Positions 1 through 12,426 of a DNA stretch of 64,000 nt are shown piece after piece (within the stretch, counting starts at the first letter, position 1; the number at the start of each line of letters is the position of its first letter). This DNA is from a virus: IMG/VR virus record IMGVR_UViG_3300017971_000190, positions 1-64,000 of that record; one strand, 5' to 3'. Both the position numbers and the translations under genes were made by a program. The notes below the pieces were generated by a model, which worked only from the letters and a program-made list of their open reading frames with translations, was not told the DNA's origin and searched no databases.

Positions 1-213
1 ACAACTGAAATGTAATTGATGTTTGCCTTTGATATGGCTGAGGCCTACGTTGAGTAGGAGAGTTCTACCGGTGGGGTCGGGTACCGGGTAGACAACTGAA
101 ATGTAATTGATGTTTGCCTTTGATATGGCTGAGGCCTACGTTGAGTAGGAGAGTTCTACCGGTGGGGTCGGGTACCGGGTAGACAACTGAAATGTAATCG
201 ATGTTTGCCTTTC
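1..213. repeat. 91-bp tandem repeat, 2.3 copies
   Basis: Units start at 1, 92 and 183; the first two are identical over 91 bp and the third diverges after about 31 bp, where the 120-nt RNA at 214 begins. Each full unit holds two hairpins: CCTAC/GTAGG (44-58) and a longer one, 65-72 with 83-91, of 8 bp with one bulged G. The array may extend left of the window. The unit is too long and lacks spacers, so it is not a CRISPR. It could be duplicated RNA modules like the rest of this region. Confidence 0.9.
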
Positions 214-333
214 GTGGGTTTACACAGACTGTGGCTCGCAGAATCTGGGGAAGTAATTGGCGGTGAAGGAAGAAAATGAGCTTGGGGCATCTGGTGAAAC
301 ATCCAGACCGACTTTAACTGCCCGCCAACCCAC
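214..333 (+). ncRNA. Structured 120-nt RNA, copy A
   Basis: The element is closed by GTGGGTT (214-220) with AACCCAC (327-333). Inside are a hairpin at 225-247 (CAGA/TCTG stacked on CTGTG/CGCAG), a second stem GGCGG (259-263) with CCGCC (322-326), and a third CTGG/CCAG hairpin. Copy B at 1307 has the same length and conserved loops but a different inner stem that still pairs (GGTAAG/CTTACC), which is true covariation. I do not recognise the family. It lies directly before a tRNA-like element. Confidence 0.75.
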
Positions 334-341
334 ATAATTTT

Positions 342-427
342 TGAGGGGCTGATGACGGTCAGAGATTGCGACTTTAAACCACAAGTCGCTAGAATTAATA
401 ACTGTGGGTTCGAGTCCCACCCCCTCG
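342..427 (+). tRNA. tRNA-like element, anticodon unclear
   Basis: Acceptor TGAGGGG (342-348) pairs with CCCCTCG (421-427), and a perfect T-arm GTGGG-TTCGAGT-CCCAC directly precedes the 3' strand. The D-like hairpin CTGA-TGACGG-TCAG follows the acceptor with no U8-A9 linker. The anticodon-like arm is GCGACTT/AAGTCGC with an 8-nt loop, so it is too long and no anticodon can be read safely. It could be a decayed tRNA or a tRNA mimic. Confidence 0.5.
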
Positions 428-909
428 TTCCAGCAAGTTCCTAGAACATCTAAGAAGCTGTGATTGTATTGGGTCAGTGGCCTGTGCAGTACACAGTGGA
501 GACGGTTCGTTTAAGGAACGAGCTGCCTTTAGTCGAGATCCCGCGTTGGCGACTAGAGGGTTGGCAGTACCAATGCAGGGGTGCGAGGTGGGTAAGTCGG
601 TCTGGTAGATTTTACCTGTTTGTAATCCAGCGACACCACTTCAATAAATGGGACTAACAGGTCTCAACCATCTTTCGTTGTCACAAGTCGGTTGAGTATT
701 CACAAGATGACAACTAGGAGTGAGGACACTAGCTTGAGTGCTTCAACGGTTTCGGCTCAAGTCCATAGCCCTTCTCCGAAAAATTGATTGAAAACCGTTT
801 ACGCCTACACGGAGTTGGGGGTTCTACAGTTGTAGGAAGAGCTTAAAAACCCAAAGTAACAGGTGGGGCTACCGGGATGTATCTTTCCCTTTCAGTGTAA
901 GCCTGTTGC
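428..909 (+). other. Gene-free, hairpin-rich segment
   Basis: No convincing protein gene is visible. Perfect hairpins occur at 482-496 (CTGTG/CACAG), 561-573 (TTGG/CCAA), 663-696 (CTCAACC/GGTTGAG) and 733-761 (CTTGAG/CTCAAG). Around 595-640 there is a stretch resembling a tRNA D-arm followed by a TGT anticodon loop, but no matching T-arm or acceptor follows. The segment probably carries further structured RNAs of the same kind as its neighbours. Confidence 0.4.
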
Positions 910-967
910 GGTAGGGAGAGTGGTGGACACGCTTGCCCCAACCCTCTACCCGAATTTTTCGTTTTTG
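910..967 (+). terminator. Probable intrinsic terminator
   Basis: GGTAGGG (910-916) pairs with CCTCTACC (944-950) around a 27-nt loop, followed by T-runs at 955-959 and 962-966. The loop contains a GGTGGACACGC stretch typical of leucine/serine tRNA D-arms, so it may be a terminator built on tRNA debris. Confidence 0.5.
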
Positions 968-1039
968 GTAAATGGAAGGTTGGCCTAAAAGCAGCCATCC
1001 TTTAAAGAGTGAGGCGAAGACCTGTTGCTCGGATTTTTG

Positions 1040-1292
1040 CTGTGAGAGGCTTGGGTACGGTTAATCTCACAGGTTCCACGCGAGTCAAAAACGTAAAGTC
1101 GCTTTTTACGTAAATAGATTTGGGAGTGGCTCTCCCTAGCGTGCTGAAACAGGAGTACTTTCGGTTAAGTGAGGAGGCACCCCGGAGACGGTAAGGCCGA
1201 ATCCCTCTTTGGCGTAGCAGCACACCATTTACCTTTTTCAGCCCCGTACCAAGTGTCCTATGGAGTTCGGGTTTAAATACTCCTCTTGGTAC
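1040..1292 (+). ncRNA. Cluster of strong hairpins (structured RNA)
   Basis: There are consecutive perfect hairpins: CTGTGAGA/TCTCACAG (1040-1072), ACGTAAA/TTTACGT (1091-1111), GGGAG/CTCCC (1122-1136), and a two-level hairpin GTACCAAG/CTTGGTAC (1246-1292) enclosing GGAGT/ACTCC. No ORF with a ribosome binding site is seen. The boundaries of the individual RNAs are not defined; this is either one large RNA or several small ones. Confidence 0.45.
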
Positions 1293-1306
1293 GCATTTTC
1301 AACCTT

Positions 1307-1426
1307 GTGGGTGTACTCAGACTGTGGCTCGCAGAATCTGAGGCAGTAATTGGTAAGAGATGAAGCTAATGAGCTTGACACCTGTAAAATAAGTTGCAGG
1401 GTGACTAAAACTGCTTACCAGCCCAC
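1307..1426 (+). ncRNA. Structured 120-nt RNA, copy B
   Basis: This is the second copy of the RNA at 214-333, of identical length. The outer stem is GTGGGT (1307-1312) with GCCCAC (1421-1426), the inner stem GGTAAG (1352-1357) with CTTACC (1414-1419), and the conserved hairpin lies at 1318-1340. Shared single-stranded blocks are AGTAATTGG, AATGAGCTTG and GACTnnAACTGC. Stems differ from copy A but keep pairing. It is followed by a T6 run and a further RNA ending in a terminator. Confidence 0.75.
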
Positions 1427-1431
1427 ATTTT

Positions 1432-1514
1432 TTGAGTTGCCCCCTAAGCACTGGTCTAACGATCCTGCTTAGGTGATCGGGGAGTGGATGGTACCTGAAG
1501 CTCCCCACTTTTTT
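1432..1514 (+). terminator. Two-hairpin RNA ending in terminator
   Basis: CCTAAGC (1443-1449) pairs with GCTTAGG (1467-1473). It is followed by GGGGAG (1479-1484) with CTCCCC (1501-1506) and a T6 tract at 1509-1514, a standard Rho-independent terminator. It ends whatever transcript contains copy B of the 120-nt RNA. Confidence 0.6.
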
Positions 1515-1601
1515 GGAAGATGAACGGGAAGGCCGGGCATTAGTGCACAGTGTCGTACCGGTTCGACTCCGGTTTGGAAATCCAAGTTCTTGGCATCTTC
1601 C
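1515..1601 (+). ncRNA. tRNA-like RNA with displaced T-arm
   Basis: An 8-bp terminal stem GGAAGATG (1515-1522) / CATCTTCC (1594-1601) encloses a perfect T-arm ACCGG-TTCGACT-CCGGT (1557-1573). Unlike a tRNA, an extra hairpin TTGG-AAAT-CCAA (1574-1585) sits between the T-arm and the 3' acceptor strand. No anticodon arm is evident, so it is not a usable tRNA by the normal rules. Confidence 0.45.
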
Positions 1602-1983
1602 TTGAAAAACCGCCAGAGGAATTACACGTTATAATCTGGCCTCTACAGAGAGTAAAAAATGTGAGGTTGTGAGTGCTTTTCCAAAAACTCTCACCCGACA
1701 TAAGTTGGATTTAGTGTCTTGTGCAGTCATAGATGGGAGGCGTTGAACTCTGGTCACCAGGTTGGAGGGAGCCAACAGTGAAATACCATCCATTGGCATT
1801 AAATTGTATAAATACAACAATTTGTGTTGGGTAATTTTCAGTTGCAACCCCTGGGTTCTGAGGTATTTGCCGGTAGCCTGCAGAACAGGGAAGTCCCGTA
1901 GCCGGATGGGTTTGGTAGTAGAACCTCTGACCCTTTTAATTGAGTCAGTAGCTGTACACTAAGAAAAAACTACCACTTTTTCG
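1602..1983 (+). other. Gene-free, hairpin-rich segment
   Basis: No supported ORF. Hairpins: CCAGA/TCTGG (1613-1639), GTGAG/CTCAC (1669-1694, first copy of a dispersed GTTGTGAGTG element), CTGG-TCA-CCAG (1750-1760), GTTGG/CCAAC (1761-1776), TTGTAT/ATACAA (1804-1817), GTTCTG/CAGAAC (1855-1886) and CTGAC/GTCAG (1927-1948). Confidence 0.4.
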
Positions 1984-2049
1984 GAGCCTGTAATTTAAAT
2001 GGAAAAAGAAGCGTTAGCCTATTTCTAGGCTCGAATCCTAGCAGGTTCC
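1984..2049 (+). pseudogene. Shortened tRNA-like element
   Basis: Acceptor GAGCCTG (1984-1990) pairs with CAGGTTC (2042-2048), directly after T-arm CTAGG-CTCGAAT-CCTAG (2025-2041; C replaces the usual first T of the loop). U8-A9 is present. Only 34 nt remain for the D and anticodon arms, about 7 too few, and no 5-bp anticodon stem forms. It is probably a decayed tRNA or an armless mimic. Confidence 0.45.
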
Positions 2050-2304
2050 TTAAAGGGTGTAGTCTCCCTCCTGGGGAAACATTTCCTGGGTTATTTGGCC
2101 ATAAAAGACTACAACGCAAATCGAAAGTGCTTGTTGAATTGATTTGTGTAATCCGAACAAGCAGTTGTGAGTGCTTCTATAAACTCTCATTTGTGAGGTT
2201 CCTGGTTGTCCAAGGATGTAAACAGGTGAGTGCTTGGGTGTGTATTCTCGCTCAAGACTGGGCAGGCGAATTGACGCTAGCGAAGCTTGGCCTCACATTT
2301 TTAA
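2050..2304 (+). other. Gene-free segment with hairpins
   Basis: A long hairpin TGTAGTC (2058-2064) / GACTACA (2107-2113) is followed by the second copy of the GTTGTGAGTG element (2164-2190). A weak promoter-like pair, TTGACG (2271) and CACATT (2294), would start transcription at about 2305, the 5' end of the next tRNA-like element. An overlapping reading frame of about 100 codons (from 2127) has no ribosome binding site and crosses the RNA structures, so I do not call it. Confidence 0.35.
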
Positions 2305-2414
2305 TCCCTATGATAGAGGATCTACTGATCATTCTAGAACGGTCGGTTGGCAGAAAAAGCTTGTTGGACCCAACTTGTTTTTCTGTTGTCCTGGTTCGAT
2401 CCCAGGATGGGGAA
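2305..2414 (+). tRNA. tRNA-like element with giant variable arm
   Basis: Acceptor TCCCTAT (2305-2311) pairs with ATGGGGA (2407-2413), next to a perfect T-arm CCTGG-TTCGATC-CCAGG (2390-2406). Between the anticodon region and T-arm lies a very long hairpin (CAGAAAAA/TTTTTCTG with inner GTTGG/CCAAC), far larger than a Ser/Leu variable arm. The putative anticodon loop ATTCTAGAAC is 10 nt, so TCT (Arg) or even CTA (amber) could be read, neither safely. Confidence 0.45.
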
Positions 2415-2529
2415 CTAAAGCACTTGGTTGTGAGTGATTCCTAAAACTCTCGGTTGTTGGTATACCAGGGTACTAACAATCTTAACACCTGGAAAAGCGT
2501 TTTGGTAGTTATCGTCAATAAATTGCTCT
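2415..2529 (+). other. Third GTTGTGAGTG copy and hairpin
   Basis: The third copy of the dispersed GTTGTGAGTG...ACTCTC element lies at 2427-2452, followed by a CCAGG/CCTGG hairpin (2465-2492). No ORF is supported here. Confidence 0.4.
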
Positions 2530-2580
2530 ACTTGAGTGACGCCGGGCTCTCCTCAAGTGGTAAAACCCGGCAACCTTTTT
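2530..2580 (+). terminator. Intrinsic terminator with overlapping stem
   Basis: GCCGGG (2541-2546) pairs with CCCGGC (2566-2571), followed by T5 (2576-2580). The terminator loop contains CTCAAGT, which is complementary to ACTTGAG just upstream (2530-2536), giving either a pseudoknot or an alternative hairpin that would hide half of the terminator. It closes the 1-2.5 kb RNA region. Confidence 0.75.
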
Positions 2581-2587
2581 ATTTTTC

Positions 2588-2616
2588 TTGACTTCCTTCT
2601 TTTAGCACAGCATAAT
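2588..2616 (+). promoter_or_regulatory. sigma70-type promoter
   Basis: TTGACT (2588-2593), 17-bp spacer, CATAAT (2611-2616). It sits between the strong terminator and the gene at 2649, with a good ribosome binding site following. It matches the promoter pattern seen elsewhere in the window. Confidence 0.75.
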
Positions 2617-2648
2617 AATTGGTGTTAAACAGCTAAAAGGAGTCACAA

Positions 2649-3140
2649 ATGGTGCAGCAACACAAAATCCGAGAAGGCGTCCCCTACACCGATGGTAAAT
2701 CCATCAGAGTTATTGTTGATACTGAAGCTGGGAGTTTTGAGAACGGCACACCCGTGTATTATAGAACCACCCGAGACCTTTTCAAGGAAGTACACGAATG
2801 CTCTTTGGGAGCGTTTGCTCGGTGGGCAACACTGCAACACGAAGAGCTGTCAGATCAAATCGTACTGGCTATTCGCCCAAATAACGGAGCAGATGTTCTC
2901 CCAGACAATCTAGAAACCAGGGTGACAAGGATTTTGAAGACCGAGATTCTGAAAATTGAAGCCGGTTTGGGAACCGTTTCTTTTAATAAAAACGTAATTC
3001 CAGCCAAACTGCTGAGACAGTTGATTCAGGATTACGAAACACTCTACGGCTCAGAAACGCTTAATATCGAAGTAGTTTTCAGTCTTTTCCTTGACGGTGC
3101 GGTGGACCGCACGGAATTCCGGTTTAAGTCTGAACAATAA
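2649..3140 (+). CDS. Hypothetical protein (163 aa)
   Basis: I do not recognise this protein. It is soluble, with no signal peptide, membrane segment or cysteine cluster, and has a mixed alpha/beta composition. The ATG follows AAAAGGAG with ideal spacing. It is the first gene after a clear promoter (2588) and terminator, so it is expressed as its own unit, possibly with the tRNA-Glu region downstream. Its position at the head of an accessory/tRNA block suggests an early protein, but that is inference. Confidence 0.8.
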   Translation: MVQQHKIREGVPYTDGKSIRVIVDTEAGSFENGTPVYYRTTRDLFKEVHECSLGAFARWATLQHEELSDQIVLAIRPNNGADVLPDNLETRVTRILKTEILKIEAGLGTVSFNKNVIPAKLLRQLIQDYETLYGSETLNIEVVFSLFLDGAVDRTEFRFKSEQ

Positions 3141-3230
3141 AGGGAGTTCGAGCTAGCGCTTCTTCCTGAGGGGCTTTGGTCCTGAAAATTCTAGCACACA
3201 CACGCTTTTATCAAGAAAGGAGATAGGATT

Positions 3231-3266
3231 ATGAAGCGCATTCCTGTTAACCTAATCAACCTCTAA
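3231..3266 (+). CDS. 11-codon minigene / leader peptide
   Basis: A perfect AGAAAGGAG ribosome binding site precedes an ATG that opens only 11 codons (MKRIPVNLINL) before TAA. It is immediately followed by a folded RNA (3298-3368) and tRNA-Glu. The strong start signal on such a short frame suggests a leader peptide or attenuator-like role rather than a functional protein; the codons show no run of one amino acid. Confidence 0.4.
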   Translation: MKRIPVNLINL

Positions 3267-3297
3267 CCCTCCCACTTAAAGCTGAGTTAGCACTCAG

Positions 3298-3368
3298 GTC
3301 CGGTTGGTGGACGTACCAGAGGAAGTATTCTGTGTTCGTTGGTACCGACACAGGGTATTAAACCGGAC
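3298..3368 (+). ncRNA. tRNA-like folded RNA before tRNA-Glu
   Basis: An 8-bp terminal stem GTCCGGTT (3298-3305) / AACCGGAC (3361-3368) is followed by a D-arm-like GGT-GGACGT-ACC hairpin and a CTGTG...CACAG arm whose loop starts TTCG, like an enlarged T-arm. No anticodon arm can be drawn. It ends 5 nt before tRNA-Glu, so the two would be processed from one transcript. Confidence 0.4.
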
Positions 3369-3372
3369 ATCT

Positions 3373-3444
3373 GGCCCCATCGTTCAATGGTTAGGACACA
3401 GGATTTTCATTCCTGAGATCGGGTTTCGACTACCCGTGGGGTCA
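3373..3444 (+). tRNA. tRNA-Glu (TTC)
   Basis: This is a full cloverleaf: acceptor GGCCCCA/TGGGGTC, D-arm with GG, anticodon loop TTTTCAT with anticodon TTC, and T-arm CGGGT-TTCGACT-ACCCG, discriminator A, 72 nt. CCA is not encoded, so host nucleotidyl transferase must add it. Confidence 0.95.
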
Positions 3445-3474
3445 ATAAACTATTAAAAGAAAGGTCATACTACA

Positions 3475-3663
3475 ATGGTGGAAAAGGAAAACAGTTTCTA
3501 CAAAGAACAATTTTCTATTTTGCAAAGGCGTCTTCGTGGTTCCATAGAAGAAGCAAAGAAGGAAGGAGACACGAAGAGAGAGATTGCTCTTCTGAGGGTA
3601 GGTTGTGACGTTGCGAACATTTTGAAGGGTGTGAACATAAATTACAACCCTCCTGGTTACTAA
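3475..3663 (+). CDS. Hypothetical small charged protein (62 aa)
   Basis: Not recognised. It is a Lys/Glu-rich, probably alpha-helical small protein with one cysteine and a hydrophobic C-terminal end (NYNPPGY). The start is chosen at the ATG after AAAGAAAGG. It lies between tRNA-Glu and tRNA-Met and ends 7 bp before the latter, so mRNA and tRNA precursors share a transcript. Confidence 0.7.
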   Translation: MVEKENSFYKEQFSILQRRLRGSIEEAKKEGDTKREIALLRVGCDVANILKGVNINYNPPGY

Positions 3664-3670
3664 AAGTTTA

Positions 3671-3743
3671 GGGCTCGTCGTCTAATTGGTAAGGCTCCAA
3701 GCTCATAACTTGGTCATTCGGGTTTCGATCACCCGCGAGCCCA
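3671..3743 (+). tRNA. tRNA-Met (CAT)
   Basis: Acceptor GGGCTCG/CGAGCCC is perfect; the anticodon arm is CCAAG-CTCATAA-CTTGG (anticodon CAT) and the T-arm CGGGT-TTCGATC-ACCCG. The paired G1-C72 end suggests an elongator Met, or an Ile tRNA whose C34 is lysidine-modified; sequence alone does not settle which. Confidence 0.93.
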
Positions 3744-3746
3744 CTA

Positions 3747-3826
3747 TGTTACTGACTACCTGAGACCGCAGCTCAAAGGTTAGTAGCAGAACACCTCAAT
3801 TAAGTGACGGTAGAACACTGAGGTGT
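3747..3826 (+). ncRNA. Hairpins upstream of the 162-nt RNA
   Basis: TGAG/CTCA around 3760-3775 is followed by a perfect 8-bp hairpin ACACCTCA (3791-3798) / TGAGGTGT (3819-3826). The latter abuts the terminal stem of the next RNA and may stack on it coaxially. Confidence 0.45.
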
Positions 3827-3999
3827 GTGCAAGCAGGTACTACCGGGAAACTATTTTCTACCCTGTAACCACGTAGTTCCGAGGAGCACAAAAGAATGAT
3901 CCACCTTTTGTCCCTACCTGGAACTTAGCGTAGTTTCCCGCGTCTTTGGCGAAAGCCGTACTGCGTTGAGGATCAAACCTGCTTGCACTTTTTCTTTTT
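3827..3999 (+). ncRNA. Highly structured 162-nt RNA
   Basis: A perfect 12-bp terminal stem joins 3827-3838 to 3977-3988. Nested inside are GGGAAACTA/TAGTTTCCC (3845-3853 with 3931-3939), AGTTCC/GGAACT (3875-3880 with 3920-3925) and ACAAAAG/CTTTTGT (3888-3911), plus a GNRA-capped hairpin GGC-GAAA-GCC (3948-3957). A T-rich tract (3989-4000) follows, so the closing stem may act as terminator. I recognise no family: it is not RNase P, tmRNA or 6S by any motif I can see. tRNA-Leu begins at 4001. Confidence 0.7.
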
Positions 4000-4000
4000 T

Positions 4001-4082
4001 GCCCACATGGTGGAACAGGTAGACACGCGAATTTTAGGTGTTCGTGGCTAACGCCGTGGGAGTTCGAGTCTCTCTGTGGGCA
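4001..4082 (+). tRNA. tRNA-Leu (TAG)
   Basis: Acceptor GCCCACA/TGTGGGC, D-arm TGGTGGAACAGGTAGACACGC typical of Leu split by its loop, anticodon arm CGAAT-TTTAGGT-GTTCG (anticodon TAG), a class II variable arm, and a T-arm with TTCGAGT. 82 nt, no encoded CCA. Confidence 0.93.
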
Positions 4083-4084
4083 CT

Positions 4085-4174
4085 AGGTCATTCTAATTTT
4101 AAGTCCTGGTAATGGTGCTAGGCAAACGTGACAAGCTTTCCATCCTTCACGTTCGAGAAAAGTTAGAATGACCT
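4085..4174 (+). ncRNA. 90-nt RNA closed by 12-bp stem
   Basis: AGGTCATTCTAA (4085-4096) pairs perfectly with TTAGAATGACCT (4163-4174). Inside is AACGTG/CACGTT (4125-4153), with a possible CCTGG/CTAGG arm, giving a three-way junction. It starts 3 nt after tRNA-Leu and ends 43 nt before the next gene, so it could be a processed small RNA or a leader of that gene. Confidence 0.6.
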
Positions 4175-4217
4175 TAAATTTGTTGGGAGTTTGAGCTAAA
4201 CAAAAGAGGTACTTAAA

Positions 4218-4550
4218 ATGATTTTCACCTATGAGATAAAACGTCACAGTGTGGATTTCCTTTTCGAGGACGGCAGCTTTCATTCAATAGTGGTGGGACA
4301 AGGGCCTGGTTACTGGTACCGAATCATTTCAAAATTGAGAGAGTTGGGAAAAGAGATAAATCCGGAAGACTTTGACCAGGGTATAGAACGTCTATACTAC
4401 GATTACGCCACCGAGGAACTGAGAGGAAAAACAGAAAAGCAGAAAGAATTGGGATACTTTACCTGTCCCCAGTGCAACGTGATTTATCCTTGTCGTTCTT
4501 TCAAATATCAAAATCCTTGCGACAACTGTCGTTATGTAAAAATTACCTAG
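4218..4550 (+). CDS. Zinc-ribbon hypothetical protein (110 aa)
   Basis: The N-terminal 80 residues are unrecognised. The C-terminus carries a zinc ribbon with C83-x2-C86 and C101-x2-C104 (plus C92), which probably binds one zinc ion. Such small phage zinc ribbons often contact nucleic acid or protein partners, but no function can be assigned. The ATG follows AAAAGAGG. The stop is immediately followed by a conserved folded RNA motif (4551). Confidence 0.75.
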   Translation: MIFTYEIKRHSVDFLFEDGSFHSIVVGQGPGYWYRIISKLRELGKEINPEDFDQGIERLYYDYATEELRGKTEKQKELGYFTCPQCNVIYPCRSFKYQNPCDNCRYVKIT

Positions 4551-4612
4551 TCACTTCGTGGTTAGGAGTGGGGCAATGGAATTGAGAAACCCCCTAGAGG
4601 TTATTGGGCAAA
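4551..4612 (+). ncRNA. Conserved 62-nt RNA motif, copy 1
   Basis: It begins with the CAC-TTC-GTG mini-hairpin followed by GGAGTGGGGCAnTGGnATT and ends with GGTTATTGGGCAAA. The same order of blocks recurs at 4888-4950 with different connecting sequence, which suggests a folded RNA under selection. Both copies precede a tRNA or tRNA-like element. Confidence 0.5.
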
Positions 4613-4639
4613 AAAGAAAGCAGGAAAGATAGATTAATA

Positions 4640-4700
4640 GTTCACATGGTAGTTTAGGTACCAGCGGGAAACCGTGTAGGTTCGAGTCCTACTGTGGGCA
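4640..4700 (+). ncRNA. Cloverleaf tRNA mimic without anticodon arm
   Basis: All parts pair: acceptor GTTCACA (4640-4646) / TGTGGGC (4693-4699), a D-like hairpin TGGTA-GTTTAGG-TACCA, a minimal hairpin CGG-GAAA-CCG with a GNRA tetraloop where the anticodon arm should be, and a perfect T-arm GTAGG-TTCGAGT-CCTAC. Discriminator A at 4700. Its 3' end resembles tRNA-Leu at 4001. At 61 nt it cannot decode; it may be a tRNA mimic or decoy, or a tRNA-Leu remnant. Confidence 0.55.
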
Positions 4701-4703
4701 CTA

Positions 4704-4874
4704 GTTGGTAGTTCTGGGAGACCTTGGTGAAACACTCCATGGGAACCCACGGTAAAAACGAGACGTGGTAGGTTGTGTAGGTAACTACAGAGCCCTTCTA
4801 TCTAGTTACTCCTTGAGGGTAACGGGGGTAGTCGGATCTTGTTTTTAGAAACAAGGCCCACCTGAACTACCAAC
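4704..4874 (+). ncRNA. Highly structured 171-nt RNA
   Basis: An 11-bp perfect terminal stem joins GTTGGTAGTTC (4704-4714) to GAACTACCAAC (4864-4874). Internal hairpins are CCACG/CGTGG (4747-4768), TGTAG-GTAA-CTACA with a GNRA loop (4776-4789), GTTAC/GTAAC (4805-4823) and CTTGTTT/AAACAAG (4838-4855). It resembles the RNA at 3827 in size and plan (long closing stem, GNRA hairpin) but not in sequence. Family unknown. Confidence 0.7.
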
Positions 4875-4887
4875 AACTTCTTCCTAA

Positions 4888-5056
4888 GCACTTCGTGTTT
4901 GGGAGTGGGGCACTGGCATTTTAAAGTCCAACTCCATGTGGTTAGGGCAAACCAGTTCAAGACTTGGGCCTTTTGGCTAGCCCAGATGTATTTCTGATTG
5001 CCGACAAGTTACAGGCTGGTTGATACCAATTACCACGAAAGAAAGAGCTAGCCACT
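4888..5056 (+). ncRNA. Conserved RNA motif, copy 2, and hairpins
   Basis: Positions 4888-4950 repeat the CACTTCGTG...GGAGTGGGGCA...GGTTAGGGCAAA motif of 4551. Downstream, TGGGC/GCCCA (about 4964-4985) and AACCAG/CTGGTT form further stems. The segment ends just before tRNA-Ser and contains no ORF. Confidence 0.5.
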
Positions 5057-5059
5057 ATG

Positions 5060-5144
5060 GGAAGGATGACCGAGCGGCTGAAGGTACACGCCTGCTAAGC
5101 GTGCGTAGGGAAACCTACCGAGGGTTCGAATCCCTCTCCTTCCG
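5060..5144 (+). tRNA. tRNA-Ser (GCT)
   Basis: Acceptor GGAAGGA/TCCTTCC, anticodon arm CACGC-CTGCTAA-GCGTG (GCT), long variable arm CGTAGG-GAAA-CCTACCG as expected for class II, T-arm GAGGG-TTCGAAT-CCCTC. Discriminator G, as in bacterial serine tRNAs. Confidence 0.95.
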
Positions 5145-5150
5145 ACGCAG

Positions 5151-5246
5151 TTGGCCCCGCTGCACATCCTATCGAGAATAATTACCACAGATGTGTGTAC
5201 ACAAAGATGCTAGGATCTTTATTTGTGGTGGTTATTCTAGGGGCAA
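5151..5246 (+). ncRNA. Long-hairpin RNA (96 nt)
   Basis: TTGGCCCC (5151-5158) pairs with GGGGCAA (5240-5246) with one bulge. An inner helix of AGAATAA+ACCACA (5175-5189) with TGTGGT+TTATTCT (5224-5238) is broken only by a TT/GG internal loop. It lies between tRNA-Ser and the tRNA-like element at 5249. Confidence 0.55.
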
Positions 5247-5248
5247 TT

Positions 5249-5378
5249 GGCAGAGTGGCGAAACGAAAAGAGGCCCATACTAGTTAACCTCTTTCTTTGG
5301 TAAACGCGCGGTAACTCCGTGATTGGTCAATCAGTTAACTGGTTCACTATCTTCCAGGTTCAAATCCTGGCTCTGTCA
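5249..5378 (+). tRNA. tRNA-like element with ~60-nt insertion
   Basis: Acceptor GGCAGAG (5249-5255) pairs with CTCTGTC (5371-5377), and the perfect T-arm CCAGG-TTCAAAT-CCTGG (5354-5370) is in its correct place, discriminator A. The intervening stretch is about 98 nt rather than 41 and contains hairpins AAAGAGG/CCTCTTT, CGG/CCG and GATT-GGTC-AATC. It is far too short for a group I intron. No anticodon can be assigned. Confidence 0.5.
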
Positions 5379-5461
5379 AGATGCTATCGCATACACTGCC
5401 TTCAAAAAGTGTATTGACAAATTAAAAAATGTTGTCACAAGACTACTAGGAGGTATTAATC

Positions 5462-5632
5462 ATGGAAAGACTTATTTATCGCTTTATTCCTAACGTTGAG
5501 ACCTTAATTGAGCAATACGAGTTGGAAGGTTTCGAGGTGCGGGGATACAGTGAGTACAGTTCTGACGGGATTCCTAGGGTGGCTGAGATGGTCAAGTGGG
5601 TTTCTGATAAACCGTCTCAAGAAAAGGAATGA
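5462..5632 (+). CDS. Hypothetical small protein (56 aa)
   Basis: Not recognised. This short soluble protein starts at an ATG preceded by the very strong ribosome binding site AGGAGGT. It lies between a tRNA-like element and tRNA-Pro. A TTGACA box is present at 5414 but no good -10 follows, so it is probably read with the RNA cluster. Confidence 0.75.
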   Translation: MERLIYRFIPNVETLIEQYELEGFEVRGYSEYSSDGIPRVAEMVKWVSDKPSQEKE

Positions 5633-5657
5633 TTTTTGATTTTCTTCTCTTTCTTTT

Positions 5658-5732
5658 CGGGGAATAACTCAGTCTGGTAGAGTGCCTGCTTTGGGAGCAG
5701 GAAGTTCGCAGGTTCGAATCCTGTTTCCCCGA
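5658..5732 (+). tRNA. tRNA-Pro (TGG)
   Basis: Acceptor CGGGGAA/TTCCCCG, D-arm with CTCAGTCTGGTAGAG, anticodon arm CCTGC-TTTGGGA-GCAGG (TGG), T-arm GCAGG-TTCGAAT-CCTGT. C1-G72 is the usual proline identity pair. No encoded CCA. Confidence 0.95.
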
Positions 5733-5735
5733 TTA

Positions 5736-5768
5736 AGTTTATTTTTCAAAGTACACGAAAAATAAACT
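5736..5768. terminator. Perfect 11-bp A/T hairpin
   Basis: AGTTTATTTTT (5736-5746) pairs with AAAAATAAACT (5758-5768). With A-runs on one arm and T-runs on the other it could terminate in either direction, though GC content is very low; it might instead separate tRNA-Pro from the next tRNA-like unit for processing. Confidence 0.45.
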
Positions 5769-5798
5769 ACCTCACTGGTACAGAGGTTAAAGTACTGT

Positions 5799-5959
5799 GG
5801 ACAAGTGTTGTGCAGAGGGTAGCACAGAGAGTAAGCTAACGAAAAGCGAAACCTGCCGTGCGAGAAGAGCAGGTCCACGGTGTAATCGGAATGCCTCTAG
5901 TGTGGTGCACCACAGCTAGTTTTAATGCCAATGAGAGGTTCGATTCCTCTCCTTGTCCA
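5799..5959 (+). tRNA. tRNA-like element with ~85-nt insertion
   Basis: Acceptor GGACAAG (5799-5805) pairs with CTTGTCC (5952-5958). The D-arm GTGC-AGAGGGTA-GCAC is normal and the T-arm GAGAGG-TTCGATT-CCTCTC is correctly placed (6 bp). Between them lie about 105 nt with hairpins ACCTGC/GCAGGT and GTGGTGCACCAC instead of a 17-nt anticodon arm. It may be a tRNA interrupted in the anticodon region or a larger tRNA-like RNA. Confidence 0.5.
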
Positions 5960-5961
5960 AA

Positions 5962-6205
5962 TGTTGGGTTGGTACTTTACCAACGACAACAGCTTTCTTC
6001 GGGAGCCCGGAAGAAAGGCTTAACCAGCGCCAGTGAGCTTCAATGGGTCGTGCACACACCGCGTTGAAGATGACTCTGGGGTAGTAGGAAGGTGCACAGA
6101 ACGGCAAACTAGGCTTTTCCTAGGTTGGCTTCTAGGCACCGATCCCTCCTTCAGTGGTGTGTGGGGCTTGGTTGTTCGTTCACACAGGGCTCAATTTTAA
6201 AAATT
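5962..6205 (+). ncRNA. Structured RNA between tRNA-like unit and gene
   Basis: Hairpins in series: TTGGT/ACCAA (5969-5983), a long GCTTTCTTC/GAAGAAAGGC arm (5992-6019), CTTCAA/TTGAAG (6038-6069), then GGTGC/GCACC (6091-6140) enclosing AACTAGG/CCTAGGTT (6107-6126). The overlapping reading frames here follow the hairpins and lack ribosome binding sites. Unknown function. Confidence 0.5.
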
Positions 6206-6219
6206 ATTAAAGGTGAAAA

Positions 6220-6417
6220 ATGAAGCTAACTAAAAAACAAGAAAAATTGGTAAAAGAGGTTATTGGAGACGGCACCGATTTTCCAAAATTTACAAACGAC
6301 CCTTATGTTAATCACAGAGTAGACATGCTTGTTTGTGACTGTCCACCTTGGGAGGAGTTGAGTAAGGAAGAGCAAGATTTGTATTTTGAGGAAGTAGAAG
6401 CTTCTAAAATGGAATAA
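6220..6417 (+). CDS. Hypothetical acidic protein (65 aa)
   Basis: Not recognised. The first 20 residues are Lys-rich, then the protein becomes acidic with a C-x-C pair in the middle and an EE-rich helical end. The ATG follows AAAGGTGA. It sits between folded RNA and tRNA-Gln (6439). Confidence 0.7.
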   Translation: MKLTKKQEKLVKEVIGDGTDFPKFTNDPYVNHRVDMLVCDCPPWEELSKEEQDLYFEEVEASKME

Positions 6418-6438
6418 TTATTAATAGTATTGTTTCTT

Positions 6439-6510
6439 TGAGGCGTAGGCAAACGGTAAGCCACGAATTTTTGGTGTTCGGCATTGGAGGTTCGAATCCT
6501 CCCGCCTCAA
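6439..6510 (+). tRNA. tRNA-Gln (TTG)
   Basis: Acceptor TGAGGCG/CGCCTCA, D-arm with AAACGG loop, anticodon arm CGAAT-TTTTGGT-GTTCG (TTG), T-arm GGAGG-TTCGAAT-CCTCC. U1-A72 at the end of the acceptor is typical of glutamine tRNAs. Confidence 0.94.
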
Positions 6511-6512
6511 AA

Positions 6513-6662
6513 ATGAAAAAAGAAAAACCTTTGAAGGATTTACTGCCGAATCCATGTTGTTGCAGTTTTCCCATGGAACCATTGAAAGTAACAAAACCAC
6601 TTAGAGAAAAATTGTGGAAGTGTCTCAAGTGTGGTAAGTTGATCTATAAATACAAAAACTAG
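6513..6662 (+). CDS. Small zinc-ribbon protein (49 aa)
   Basis: A CCC triplet at residues 15-17 and a C-x2-CG pair near residue 38 suggest a small zinc-binding protein. The chosen ATG lies 2 nt after the tRNA-Gln discriminator base, with no ribosome binding site; tRNA 3'-end processing would leave an essentially leaderless mRNA. Reading the frame further upstream would run through the tRNA, so this start is preferred. Confidence 0.5.
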   Translation: MKKEKPLKDLLPNPCCCSFPMEPLKVTKPLREKLWKCLKCGKLIYKYKN

Positions 6663-6665
6663 TGC

Positions 6666-6755
6666 GGAGTGTATAGTGTTTAAATGGCAACACGGCTAGT
6701 GGCTAACGGGTCATACCTGCCAGGCAAAAGTGGGTTCAAATCCTGCAACACTCCA
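6666..6755 (+). tRNA. tRNA-like element, 90 nt, anticodon unclear
   Basis: Acceptor GGAGTGT (6666-6672) pairs with ACACTCC (6748-6754). The D-arm GTGTT-TAAATGGC-AACAC and T-arm GTGGG-TTCAAAT-CCTGC are present, but one extra A separates T-stem and acceptor. The middle contains TCATACC and CTGCCAG (possible CAT or GCC anticodons) without a proper 5-bp stem. Confidence 0.45.
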
Positions 6756-6824
6756 TATAATGTTTAGCGAGAGACAAGCAGTTGGGCTCTCGTGGCGACT
6801 TTGTAGAGGGTGTACAATTTTTCT

Positions 6825-6897
6825 GGGCGATTAACTCAGTTGGCAGAGTGCAATCTTTACGCGGTTGAAGTCACAGGTTCAAACCCTGTATCGCCCA
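6825..6897 (+). tRNA. tRNA-Val (TAC)
   Basis: Acceptor GGGCGAT/ATCGCCC, D-arm CTCAGTTGGCAGAG, anticodon arm CAATC-TTTACGC-GGTTG (TAC), T-arm ACAGG-TTCAAAC-CCTGT, discriminator A. A CGAGAG/CTCTCG hairpin lies just upstream (6770-6792). Confidence 0.95.
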
Positions 6898-6905
6898 AAA
6901 AGAAG

Positions 6906-6934
6906 TTGACTTTACCACTACTCTGTGTTAGCCT
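6906..6934 (+). promoter_or_regulatory. sigma70-type promoter for small RNA
   Basis: TTGACT (6906-6911), 17-bp spacer, TAGCCT (6929-6934) preceded by TGT, an extended -10. Transcription would start at about 6941, immediately before a folded, terminator-ended RNA with no ORF. Confidence 0.6.
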
Positions 6935-6940
6935 TTTCTT

Positions 6941-7053
6941 AATCCGTGAGAGATCAGGCTCAACTGCTCTCACGGGGTTGTCAACGGGGTGGGCCAATCC
7001 CCTGACGGCGGGAGCTGCGTTTCCTTTTGGAAGCAGTCTCCCGTTTTAATTTT
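6941..7053 (+). ncRNA. Stand-alone small RNA (~110 nt)
   Basis: Between its own promoter (6906) and terminator (7009-7053) lie a hairpin CCGTGAGAG/CTCTCACGG and a GGGG/CCCC arm. No start codon with a ribosome binding site is inside. This is the best-delimited small RNA of the region. It lies upstream of the gene at 7073 and could instead be an attenuated leader of that gene. Confidence 0.6.
7009..7053 (+). terminator. Intrinsic terminator
   Basis: CGGGAGCTGC (7009-7018) pairs with GCAG-t-CTCCCG (7033-7043), followed by TTTTAATTTT. It closes the small RNA and separates the RNA region from the following gene block. Confidence 0.8.
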
Positions 7054-7072
7054 AGAAAGGAAACAAAGCACC

Positions 7073-7273
7073 ATGGTAGAAGAAAAAGAAACCTACGAAG
7101 CTATCAATTTTGGTTGGGACGGTGATGATTTTGTAACCGAAGATGTTACAGGCAAAATTCGTCGCTATCACGGTGCCAAAATTACCGACGTTAAGCGAGA
7201 GTGTTCTGTGGAAGTTCAAGACGGTAAAGTGATTGGACACTTTTCGTTTCAATTACCGAAAAAGAAAGGCTAA
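7073..7273 (+). CDS. Hypothetical protein (66 aa)
   Basis: Not recognised. It is a small acidic protein rich in beta-forming residues, ending in a basic KKKG tail. The ATG follows GAAAGGAAACA; longer upstream frames cross the terminator and are rejected. It ends 4 bp before the next gene, suggesting one operon. Confidence 0.7.
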   Translation: MVEEKETYEAINFGWDGDDFVTEDVTGKIRRYHGAKITDVKRECSVEVQDGKVIGHFSFQLPKKKG

Positions 7274-7277
7274 GAGA

Positions 7278-7565
7278 ATGACTATGGTAAAAGAACACGA
7301 ACTTAAGTATGGGGTAGATGGTTGCCTCTTAACCTGGCAAAACCCTTTTCCTGAAGAAGTAACCTGTGCTTGTTGTGGAAAAGAAGGTGCACGTTTAGCT
7401 TTTGTTCTACAAGAATCAGGCAAAAAGGAGCACGCTTGTAATTTATATCAAAACGATCCGGATGGAGAGGGATTTTGGGTGCACGATTCAGCTGCTTTTG
7501 CAGTTTATTTGTGCAGAGATATTAATTGCCCTGAAAAAGCTACCGCTAAGTGGAATCAAGCTTAA
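7278..7565 (+). CDS. Cys-rich zinc-binding hypothetical protein (95 aa)
   Basis: It contains a C30-x-C32-C33 cluster and C79/C84 near the end, spaced as a split zinc site. No known domain. The start at 7278 is chosen because the longer frame overlaps the preceding gene; a second ATG follows 2 codons later. It ends 9 bp before tRNA-Lys. Confidence 0.7.
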   Translation: MTMVKEHELKYGVDGCLLTWQNPFPEEVTCACCGKEGARLAFVLQESGKKEHACNLYQNDPDGEGFWVHDSAAFAVYLCRDINCPEKATAKWNQA

Positions 7566-7574
7566 AATATTTTT

Positions 7575-7647
7575 GGGTCCTTAGCTCAGCTGGTAGAGCA
7601 CCGGACTTTTAATCCGTAGGTCTTCGGTTCAAACCCGAAAGGACTCA
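7575..7647 (+). tRNA. tRNA-Lys (TTT)
   Basis: Acceptor GGGTCCT/AGGACTC with one wobble, D-arm GCTC/GAGC, anticodon arm CGGAC-TTTTAAT-CCG.. (TTT), T-arm TCGGG-like TTCGG-TTCAAAC-CCGAA. Canonical 73 nt. It directly precedes the RNA ligase gene, which may repair cleaved tRNAs. Confidence 0.95.
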
Positions 7648-7762
7648 TTAGTTCACCCATCAGAATAGTAAGTTTTAAGGAGAAAGATCATGAAGAAGAT
7701 TGTGCCTTCAAATTGTTGTAAACAGAATCAAGTATTTAAACTTAAACGAAAGAAGAACTGTT

Positions 7763-8377
7763 TTGAAAACATACCCAAGTATGGTTTATCCTCCCTTTGG
7801 AGGATTGAAGGAGTACCTTCACACCTTTGCTAAGTTGGACGGCAGCAATCTCAGATTTGAATGGAGCAAGAAAAAAGGTTGGTACAAAGTTGGAACCCGG
7901 CATCGTCTTGTAGACGAAAGTGATTCTATTTTTGGAAAAGCTCCCCTTATTTTTCAAGAAACTTTGGCTGACCAGTGCGAGAAAATTTGTAGAGATAATC
8001 GTTGGCAGAGAGCTGTGATTTTCTGCGAGTACTATGGACCACAAAGCTTTGCTGGCCTGCATGAAATTGGAGGTACGATGACGCTAACGGTTATAGACGT
8101 AGCTCCTTACAAAAAAGGCATTTTACCACCTACTGATTTTCTAAAACTGTTTGGAGAATTAGGGCCGCATTACCTGGGATACTTGAAGTGGAATTTTAAT
8201 TTCATAAATCGAGTTCATCAGGGTTTAGAGCCTGAAGCTAGTTTTGAAGGAGTAGTTGGTAAAGCTAAAGGGAAAGGAAATACACTACTTCTCTACAAAA
8301 CCAAAACTCAAGCCTGGAAAGATGAAGTTAAAAAACGATACAGTAAGAAGGAAGCAGAAAAAATAATTCATAGCTAA
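7763..8377 (+). CDS. RNA ligase (nucleotidyltransferase superfamily)
   Basis: The N-terminus has a YPSM motif and then KLDGSN, the motif I nucleophile (K24), followed by a CEYYG element, EGVVGK (motif IV) and a KTK motif V, as in T4 Rnl2-type ATP-dependent RNA ligases. Such enzymes reseal broken RNA, classically tRNAs cut by host anticodon nucleases, and this gene follows tRNA-Lys. I prefer the TTG at 7763; a GTG at 7700 would add 21 unlike residues. A better ribosome binding site serves an ATG at 7690 in another frame (47 codons), so an initiation oddity or frameshift is possible. Confidence 0.85.
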   Translation: MKTYPSMVYPPFGGLKEYLHTFAKLDGSNLRFEWSKKKGWYKVGTRHRLVDESDSIFGKAPLIFQETLADQCEKICRDNRWQRAVIFCEYYGPQSFAGLHEIGGTMTLTVIDVAPYKKGILPPTDFLKLFGELGPHYLGYLKWNFNFINRVHQGLEPEASFEGVVGKAKGKGNTLLLYKTKTQAWKDEVKKRYSKKEAEKIIHS

Positions 8378-11303: not shown

Positions 11304-11627
11304 GTGTGTTATTTTCAGGACATTGCTGTAAAAAAAGTTGTAGTAGAAGTCATTTCCGAGCTGGTGGGAAAGCGTAAGCGCTTCACCGGTTGGGAAGTGA
11401 ATCAAAAATTACAAAACCGCAAAGGCTTTGCTCACCTTCCCCCACCCTGGCAGATCAGCTCCTATGTACGGGAACTGTTTAATGGGCATAACAGTGCTTT
11501 TTCAGGTTATGCCTGTTATCCAGTTGATGGAGGCCCCTTGCTCTATTTCCCAATTCCGTACTATGTGAGAAATCATGTCGAAAAAATCCAAAAAGAAATC
11601 CAAACGGAAGGCCAAACCGAAAAGTAA
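11304..11627 (+). CDS. Hypothetical protein (107 aa)
   Basis: GTG start after AAAGGAAAG. Residues 20-70 resemble a small winged-helix-like fold (GWEVNQKLQ, then SSYVRELF), and it ends in a charged coiled tail. The last 53 bp overlap the PARP-like gene in another frame, so the two are translationally coupled and perhaps partners, for example antidote or regulator of the transferase. That pairing is inference. Confidence 0.65.
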   Translation: MCYFQDIAVKKVVVEVISELVGKRKRFTGWEVNQKLQNRKGFAHLPPPWQISSYVRELFNGHNSAFSGYACYPVDGGPLLYFPIPYYVRNHVEKIQKEIQTEGQTEK

Positions 11628-12426
11628 CCCTTCTGTTTCGATGCCCAGTGTTCAGGAACTTTTTGGTTCCAGTTGTCGTTATCGCCTTAGCAGTTCTTTT
11701 CGTGGACCTCAATTAGAAGGTTACGAATTCTTATGTGCTTTCGAAAACAAAGTACACTCTTACCACACCCCCACAATGCAGAAGCTTGGCAATATTAAAC
11801 AAGCTTGGCATGGTACCAATAAGGCTGCACTTAAAAGCATTGCTGTGGATGGATTACTCACGCCTTTTCAGCGTCGAAAGCGAGATCGCTGGACTAGCAT
11901 ACACGGTATGTTTGGACCAGGAATTTATTTAGCTCCTAACATTGAAAAAGCGGCTATGTTCGCATGGCAGCATAAGCATTTGAAGTTTGTTCTTCAATGC
12001 TATGTTGCTTTGGGAAAACCTCATTTTGCTACTCAAACAGGAAACTATTACGAAACAGCTGAAATGGAAGACAAGCATAGTGTCATAGGTGGAAGAGGAT
12101 CACTGACTGGAGCTTGGGGTGGTAGACTCTTAAACGAAGAGTGGGTAATTTTCGATAATCAACAAGCTACTGTAGACATGGTACTCGTGTACAGATGCGT
12201 GGAAACTCCTAAGGCTACCCCATTTCGAGGCTCGATTGGACGACGATTTTATAACAGTAGTAGAGAACCACAAGGTGTTGTTCGTTACCACCCTTGCAAA
12301 CGAAATGGCAAGCTTTGTCGCAATGCTTTTGGCTCTGGTGGCTGTGTGGAAAAAGGTATAACTACTGGAGCGAGTGCCTTTTCAGATTACTGCAGAGATT
12401 ATCAAGTATCCTTGATTCACAAATAA
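11575..12426 (+). CDS. PARP-type ADP-ribosyltransferase (283 aa)
   Basis: The core (residues 75-207) matches the PARP catalytic fold: WHGT (H79), FGPGIYLA (Y118), an ALGK strand and NEEWVIFDNQQ, where E189 aligns with the PARP1 catalytic glutamate. The H-Y-E triad is thus intact, predicting transfer of ADP-ribose from NAD+. The first 18 residues are a Lys/Arg tail that may bind nucleic acid; the C-terminal 75 residues include several cysteines. Phages use ADP-ribosylation to remodel host transcription or counter defence (T4 Alt/Mod are other families). The target is unknown. Confidence 0.8.
   Translation: MSKKSKKKSKRKAKPKSNPSVSMPSVQELFGSSCRYRLSSSFRGPQLEGYEFLCAFENKVHSYHTPTMQKLGNIKQAWHGTNKAALKSIAVDGLLTPFQRRKRDRWTSIHGMFGPGIYLAPNIEKAAMFAWQHKHLKFVLQCYVALGKPHFATQTGNYYETAEMEDKHSVIGGRGSLTGAWGGRLLNEEWVIFDNQQATVDMVLVYRCVETPKATPFRGSIGRRFYNSSREPQGVVRYHPCKRNGKLCRNAFGSGGCVEKGITTGASAFSDYCRDYQVSLIHK

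Follow-up and report, generated by a model that had tools for sequence, protein, structure and literature searches.

A single-copy structured RNA of no recognised family in the tRNA-rich array of a phage, beside RNAs resembling parts of the bacterial ribosome

Introduction

Phage tRNA islands contain a few structured RNAs that have no known function. The locus studied here raises the question of whether the segment between a tRNA-Met and a tRNA-Leu gene encodes another such RNA, whether this RNA belongs to a described family, and what it might do. The window is a stretch of 64,000 nucleotides, positions 1 to 64,000 of the IMG/VR virus record IMGVR_UViG_3300017971_000190. In an earlier note, made from the letters of the DNA, the segment was read as a 162-nt RNA of unknown family with nested perfect stems of an order that could not arise by chance.

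Results and discussion

Fold of the RNA at positions 3827-3988

The predicted fold is a branched domain closed by helix P1 (Table 1). It recovers the architecture given in the earlier note, with the 12-bp closing stem, the three perfect stems nested within it (P2, P2b and P2c, each at the place described), the T-rich tract TTTTTCTTTTTT and the length of 162 nt. The claimed GGC-GAAA-GCC hairpin, P3, is present as well; it is found in the centroid structure but is displaced in the minimum free energy (MFE) structure by a longer rival pairing, 3942-3951/3964-3973, with pair probabilities of about 0.3-0.43. Competing pairings occur only around P3, and P1 has no visible competitor when 3827-3988 is folded.

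Table 1. Positions of the structural elements, candidate signals and flanking genes around the RNA, numbered as in the window.
Feature	Position	Strand	Remarks
tRNA-Met, preceding gene	3671..3744	+	ARAGORN
P1 closing helix, 5' arm	3827..3838	+	12 bp, perfect; pair probabilities 0.93-1.0
P2, 5' arm	3844..3853	+	10 bp, perfect, with 3931-3940; high pair probabilities
P2b, 5' arm	3875..3880	+	6 bp, perfect, with 3920-3925; pair probabilities 0.9-1.0
GAGGAG, Shine-Dalgarno-like	3881..3886	+	9 nt upstream of ATG
P2c hairpin	3888..3911	+	7 bp, 3888-3894/3905-3911; 10-nt loop; pair probabilities 0.96-1.0
Mini-ORF MIHLLSLPGT-stop (tentative)	3896..3928	+	noticed post hoc
Candidate pseudoknot strand TGATCC in P2c loop	3897..3902	+	partner 3970-3975
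P2b, 3' arm	3920..3925	+	pairs with 3875-3880
P2, 3' arm	3931..3940	+	10 bp with 3844-3853
P3 hairpin GGC-GAAA-GCC (GNRA loop)	3948..3957	+	in centroid, absent from MFE
Candidate pseudoknot strand GGATCA, just before P1 3' arm	3970..3975	+	partner 3897-3902
P1, 3' arm	3977..3988	+	pairs with 3827-3838; P1 interior 138 nt
T-rich tract directly 3' of P1	3989..4000	+	probably the 3' end or a partial terminator
tRNA-Leu (anticodon TAG), next gene	4001..4083	+	ARAGORN

The folding energy of a 181-nt stretch had a z-score of -4.6, and that of the precise 162 nt one of -5.8; no shuffle was as low, out of 200 and 500, respectively. The 64 kb contain a single helix of at least 12 bp around a helix of at least 10 bp, and 60 shuffled 64-kb windows contain none, which together with the z-score of -5.8 bears out the claim that chance does not account for the fold. 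The looser nesting of 10 over 9 bp also occurs once, near the shuffled mean of 0.47, so that the length of the helices is the unusual property. The minus strand folds almost equally well (z -5.1) and energy alone therefore cannot give the strand; the plus strand was assigned because of the T-tract and the neighbouring genes. No ORF of at least 60 aa runs across 3827-3988.

The T-tract also bears on a termination or processing spacer, in which P1 and the U-tract would act as a long-looped terminator or RNase III-type site parting tRNA-Met from tRNA-Leu, while the inner fold would merely join the two arms. The tract follows P1 directly and long stems recur between the RNA genes of the array, as such a spacer would have it; however, the inner helices are no simpler than P1, and no ordinary terminator was called in the region 3827-4000, the wider stretch 3000-5200 containing no intrinsic terminator in the sense of a GC-rich short-loop hairpin with a U run. 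The interval from the U-tract to tRNA-Leu also showed no promoter-like site, so that tRNA-Leu would be left without a promoter if termination were complete. We regard this explanation as improbable.

Two further elements lie within the fold, a candidate pseudoknot of six Watson-Crick pairs and a short ORF led by a Shine-Dalgarno (SD) sequence. In chance tests that were run after both had been seen, the pseudoknot pairing arose in 1.4% of shuffles when restricted to its two segments and in 3.1% when any segment was allowed, and an SD match of 6 letters with ATG and at least 8 codons arose in 0.05% of shuffled RNAs, or in 0.95% when at least 5 letters were accepted. The mini-ORF, if real, would imply a role in cis, against a trans-acting RNA. 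The main rival to the explanation preferred below is accordingly a cis attenuator of tRNA-Leu(UAG), in which translation of, or stalling on, MIHLLSLPGT would rearrange P2b, P2c and the pseudoknot and so decide on termination at P1 and the U-tract before tRNA-Leu. At the sequence level, this would explain the spacing of GAGGAG from an ATG followed by ten codons and a stop, which is rare in shuffles, and the position of the T-tract between P1 and tRNA-Leu. The peptide contains the Leu codons CTT, TTG and CTA, but three in ten is little proof, and the mini-ORF is without a homologue and was seen post hoc. The 5' arm of P1 lies upstream of the mini-ORF, and no antiterminator was seen that could take up the 3' arm.

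A precedent for such an arrangement exists in the same array, where an SD-led mini-ORF at 3231, MKRIPVNLINL, lies upstream of a closed RNA at 3298-3369, followed by tRNA-Glu. Its counterpart in a related locus (L014 5823-5938, matching 3231-3369 of the window) precedes a tRNA-Val and has the mini-ORF MKRFALNNL, as read from the aligned DNA. The closing stem of the closed RNA, GTCCGGTT/AACCGGAC, is identical in L014, and by eye its inner pseudoknot appears to covary, from GTACCA-TGGTAC to ATGCCA-TGGCAT. A pattern scan for this closed RNA returned the L014 record and two unrelated terminase genes, the latter judged to be chance. Taking both sides together, we find attenuation of tRNA-Leu unlikely.

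Search for relatives

In agreement with the claim that the family is unknown, the Rfam search suggested in the earlier note gave zero matches to 3820-4000 at gathering and permissive thresholds, even at E 10. BLAST of the RNA region found zero matches in 50,697 phage records and only chance 22-mers, located on plasmids, in E. coli genomes, and the RNA occurs once in the source virus record of 221,679 bases. For a comparison with related loci, the gene of an RNA ligase at 7763-8377 (phrog_548, E 2.7e-7, conserved K-DG motif) was used as bait, which yielded an alignment with huge-phage relatives and 80 further loci. This ligase family is common to huge phages, Lak phages and XacN1, and is usually, not always, found near tRNAs; at least one tRNA was present in 65 of the 89 loci, with the loci of near-identical contigs counted separately. 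The loci L014, L015 and L016 have other array RNAs in common with the window; L094, L097, L098 and L101 were added by pattern scans. Other protein baits (a 163-aa neighbour, a 756-aa protein and a topoisomerase) brought up no relative in viral_contigs.

A covariance model of the RNA, weak by nature as it was built from a single sequence, matched only itself in the window and the 89 loci and had zero matches in 14 whole viral records, related or array-bearing (10 + 4), and in 20 further loci. With filters off, it gave weak, short and partial matches, of which those listed were hairpins mimicking P1, the best at E 0.36. The earlier reading of a structured RNA outside any Rfam family and adjoining tRNA-Leu is thus upheld by the folding statistics and the RNA-array setting, but the homologues sought beside tRNA-Leu in other phages did not appear in the 14 records and about 110 loci.

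Comparisons with particular kinds of RNA were negative. A different conserved RNA stretch (GTGGGCTGTGGTAAGCTCAAGCA...) was observed in L098 (3748-3931) and on the minus strand of L097 (~960-1130), with an MFE no better than shuffles; in L098 it precedes a tRNA-Leu(TAG), but common descent with 3827-3988 found no alignment (local score 11). Mimicry of rRNA by the RNA itself was assessed against the E. coli rRNAs, where 74 of 200 shuffles scored equally high with 23S, 185 of 200 with 16S and 124 of 200 with 5S; the best 23S match, 1953-2017, is not above shuffles. Finally, neither ARAGORN nor Rfam called a tRNA at 3827-3988 and a T-arm motif is absent, so it was not taken as a tRNA or tRNA-like element.

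The lack of homologues and the several abnormal tRNA-like elements in the array would fit a chance structure or the decayed remains of an RNA gene, tRNA-like or otherwise, within an array that is degenerating. However, twelve and ten consecutive perfect pairs are unlike the leftovers of decay, and shuffles do not reproduce them (0 of 500 and 0 of 60), which makes this origin highly improbable. The segment 3827-3988 is a real, unclassified, single-copy structured RNA without detectable relatives.

The RNA array at positions 1-7700

From position 1 to ~7.7 kb, tRNAs, abnormal tRNA-like elements and further RNAs with closed stems form an array, with eight tRNAs called by ARAGORN between 3372 and 7648. 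It contains 8 perfect stems of at least 10 bp within 230 nt, as opposed to 1.87 in shuffles (0 of 200 as high). A sliding 160-nt scan of the first 9 kb gave a mean z of -0.79 on the plus and -0.64 on the minus strand versus -0.07 for a coding control, in a register too coarse for ranking single array units. A search for T-arm and acceptor located tRNA-like elements at 342-427, 1984-2048, 4640-4699, 5249-5377, ~5800-5958 and ~6667-6754, none of which ARAGORN calls; T-arm and acceptor are present, and the anticodon regions are missing, shortened or enlarged. As read from the sequence, the anticodon arm of 4640-4699 is a short CGG-GAAA-CCG hairpin.

Several other features of the region were observed. 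Closed-stem units follow tRNA-Leu (4085-4174) and the tRNA-like element 4640-4699 (4704-4874), with perfect arms of 12 and 11 bp. A 91-bp tandem repeat occupies the start of the record (1-212), and two pairs of noncoding units are repeated at 74% and 72% identity (214-345/1307-1436 and 4546-4612/4883-4951). Two short noncoding stretches are conserved in the arrays of relatives, 893-957 in L014 (4489-4551, 89%) and L016 (4141-4199, 80%), and 6017-6096 in L014 (9381-9459, 71%). Further downstream, 11575-12426 encodes a protein with a PARP (ADP-ribosyltransferase) domain (E 6e-13).

Apparently circularly permuted tRNA genes were also seen in other loci, in which the T-arm and 3' acceptor are followed by a short linker, the complementary 5' acceptor and, in several cases, the D-arm. 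The candidates are L015 12090, 12294 and 12473; L067 8059 and 8213; L093 14220; L062 14676; L032 8963; L107 5046, in the cultured phage UNO-G1W1; and L044 16471. For L015 12090, a different partner exists downstream, and the L044 case is possibly an ordinary tandem. The arrangement was found at 10 of 133 T-arm sites without an upstream partner versus 1.36 in shuffles (maximum 7, 500 shuffles).

Ribosome-like neighbours

Two RNAs of the array resemble 23S rRNA of E. coli in BLAST: 1720-1794 matches 2109-2182 at 76% over 75 nt (E 7e-10) and 979-1008 matches 1059-1088 at 27 of 30 nt (E 3e-4). These parts of 23S are the L1 stalk and the GTPase-associated centre, which binds L11, respectively. By sequence likeness, the array RNAs 1720-1794 and 963-1239 are interpreted as mimics of parts of the bacterial ribosome. 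No match to the first was found in the phage collection.

The GTPase-centre RNA (963-1239) contains an insert whose core, of the CACCCCGGAGACGGTAAGGC type, is strongly conserved, and the closing helix of the RNA, 967-1233, is followed by TTTTTC; the homologue in L016 (8334-8627) likewise has a closing helix and then a T-tract. Further homologues were found in L015, L094, L097 and L098 (~3338-3520) and in eight records of the phage collection, including cultured phages (L106-L110): the Pseudomonas phages Astolliot, UNO-G1W1, pf16 (two records) and Milchi, Aeromonas phage 4_4572 (two records) and, with 37 bases only, Xanthomonas phage XacN1. In the cultured-phage records, the RNA either lacks an annotation or is listed as a hypothetical protein, and it mostly lies beside tRNAs. 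Across nine aligned sequences, 96.3% of 81 cells of the closing helix are paired, both sides have changed in 7 of 9 pairs (26 cells), and the covariation score was reached in 0 of 500 shuffles, with no slid register near it. The GTPase-centre RNA and its homologues form a covarying family, which in pf16 and other cultured phages seems not to have been annotated as RNA. Its motif had no exact match in genome_contigs. A GTPase-centre-like stretch was also noted in another phage, at L018 2820-2854 (88.6% over 35 nt), and 240 nt further, at 3097-3107, the sarcin-ricin-loop string AGTACGAGAGG, of which about two would be expected by chance in the bases scanned.

Possible function

We tentatively propose, with a probability of roughly 40%, that 3827-3988 is a stable, trans-acting phage RNA belonging to a set directed at translation. 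We favour this explanation because an autonomous domain on a long helix ends in a T-tract, as in the GTPase-centre RNA, and because the segment sits among tRNAs and rRNA mimics. It would be a compact noncoding RNA of ~162 nt from a large phage, presumably transcribed from the plus strand together with the flanking tRNA genes. Its 12-bp helix would join both RNA ends and hold the branched domain, which the putative pseudoknot, formed by the P2c loop and the segment preceding the P1 3' arm, would probably lock, and the 3' end would form at the U-rich tract. Such an RNA would most likely work in trans by binding a protein of the translation machinery, as one component of an array that appears to be aimed at this machinery with tRNAs, tRNA-like RNAs and mimics of the L1 stalk and the L11/GTPase centre.

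This assessment takes into account the z-score of -5.8, the unique 12/10-bp nesting, the missing ORF of 60 aa or more, the stem-rich array with its further closed-stem units, the covariation of the GTPase-centre family and the plus-strand order of RNA genes, in which tRNA-Met ends at 3744 and tRNA-Leu starts at 4001. Counted against it are the lack of a homologue and of covariation, the likeness to E. coli rRNA at chance level and the strands, which energy does not separate. The step from neighbourhood to function is one that we infer, and the RNA is linked to the mimics solely by its location among them. More doubtful is the wider proposal that the phage carries a battery of RNAs copying or contacting the host translation machinery (the L1 stalk, the L11/GTPase centre and tRNA bodies without normal anticodon arms), in which 3827-3988, as a regulator or decoy, would bind a ribosomal protein, a translation factor or a tRNA-directed enzyme by its structure and not by rRNA sequence.

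Relation to known RNAs and significance

The nearest known kind of RNA is GOLLD and ROOL, which, according to a published account (PMC12286853), are structured RNAs that phages and prophages encode, often near tRNA islands, and whose function is not known. The RNA at 3827-3988 shares the phage origin and the tRNA island, but its membership fails on model and size, as the GOLLD and ROOL Rfam models do not match 3820-4000, and GOLLD exceeds 800 nt in many members, GOLLD and ROOL forming very large, ornate folds with multimeric cages, in contrast to 162 nt with a simple closing helix. With the GTPase-centre mimic it shares the array and the T-tract after the closing helix (present in the window copy as well as in L016), but it has neither the L11-site sequence of 23S nor a deep family.

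Phage T4 produces the stable RNAs C and D (species 1 and 2), which are small, have no known function and are made with the phage tRNA cluster; 3827-3988 would resemble them in these general traits. Bacterial Y RNAs (YrlA) have paired ends and a Ro-binding consensus. Paired ends are also present here, as is a string, GGCGAAAG, that fits this consensus, although the string forms a hairpin loop in 3827-3988. An identity as Y RNA was rejected, given the missing Rfam match and the lack of a Ro/TROVE protein in the one phage record, which may be incomplete, while Ro could also be provided by the host. No title or abstract found in a literature search of open-access journal papers describes the RNA or the rRNA mimics.

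The RNA at 3827-3988 is an orphan, and its main value lies in the array that surrounds it. For two neighbours of the RNA, the sequence allows a guess at their function, since they appear to be copies of the two flexible stalks of the 50S subunit. As the GTPase-centre RNA is present in cultured Pseudomonas and Aeromonas phages, it is directly testable. If it is true that phages make mimics of the ribosome stalks, this would mean that ribosomal proteins or factors are handled at the RNA level during infection.
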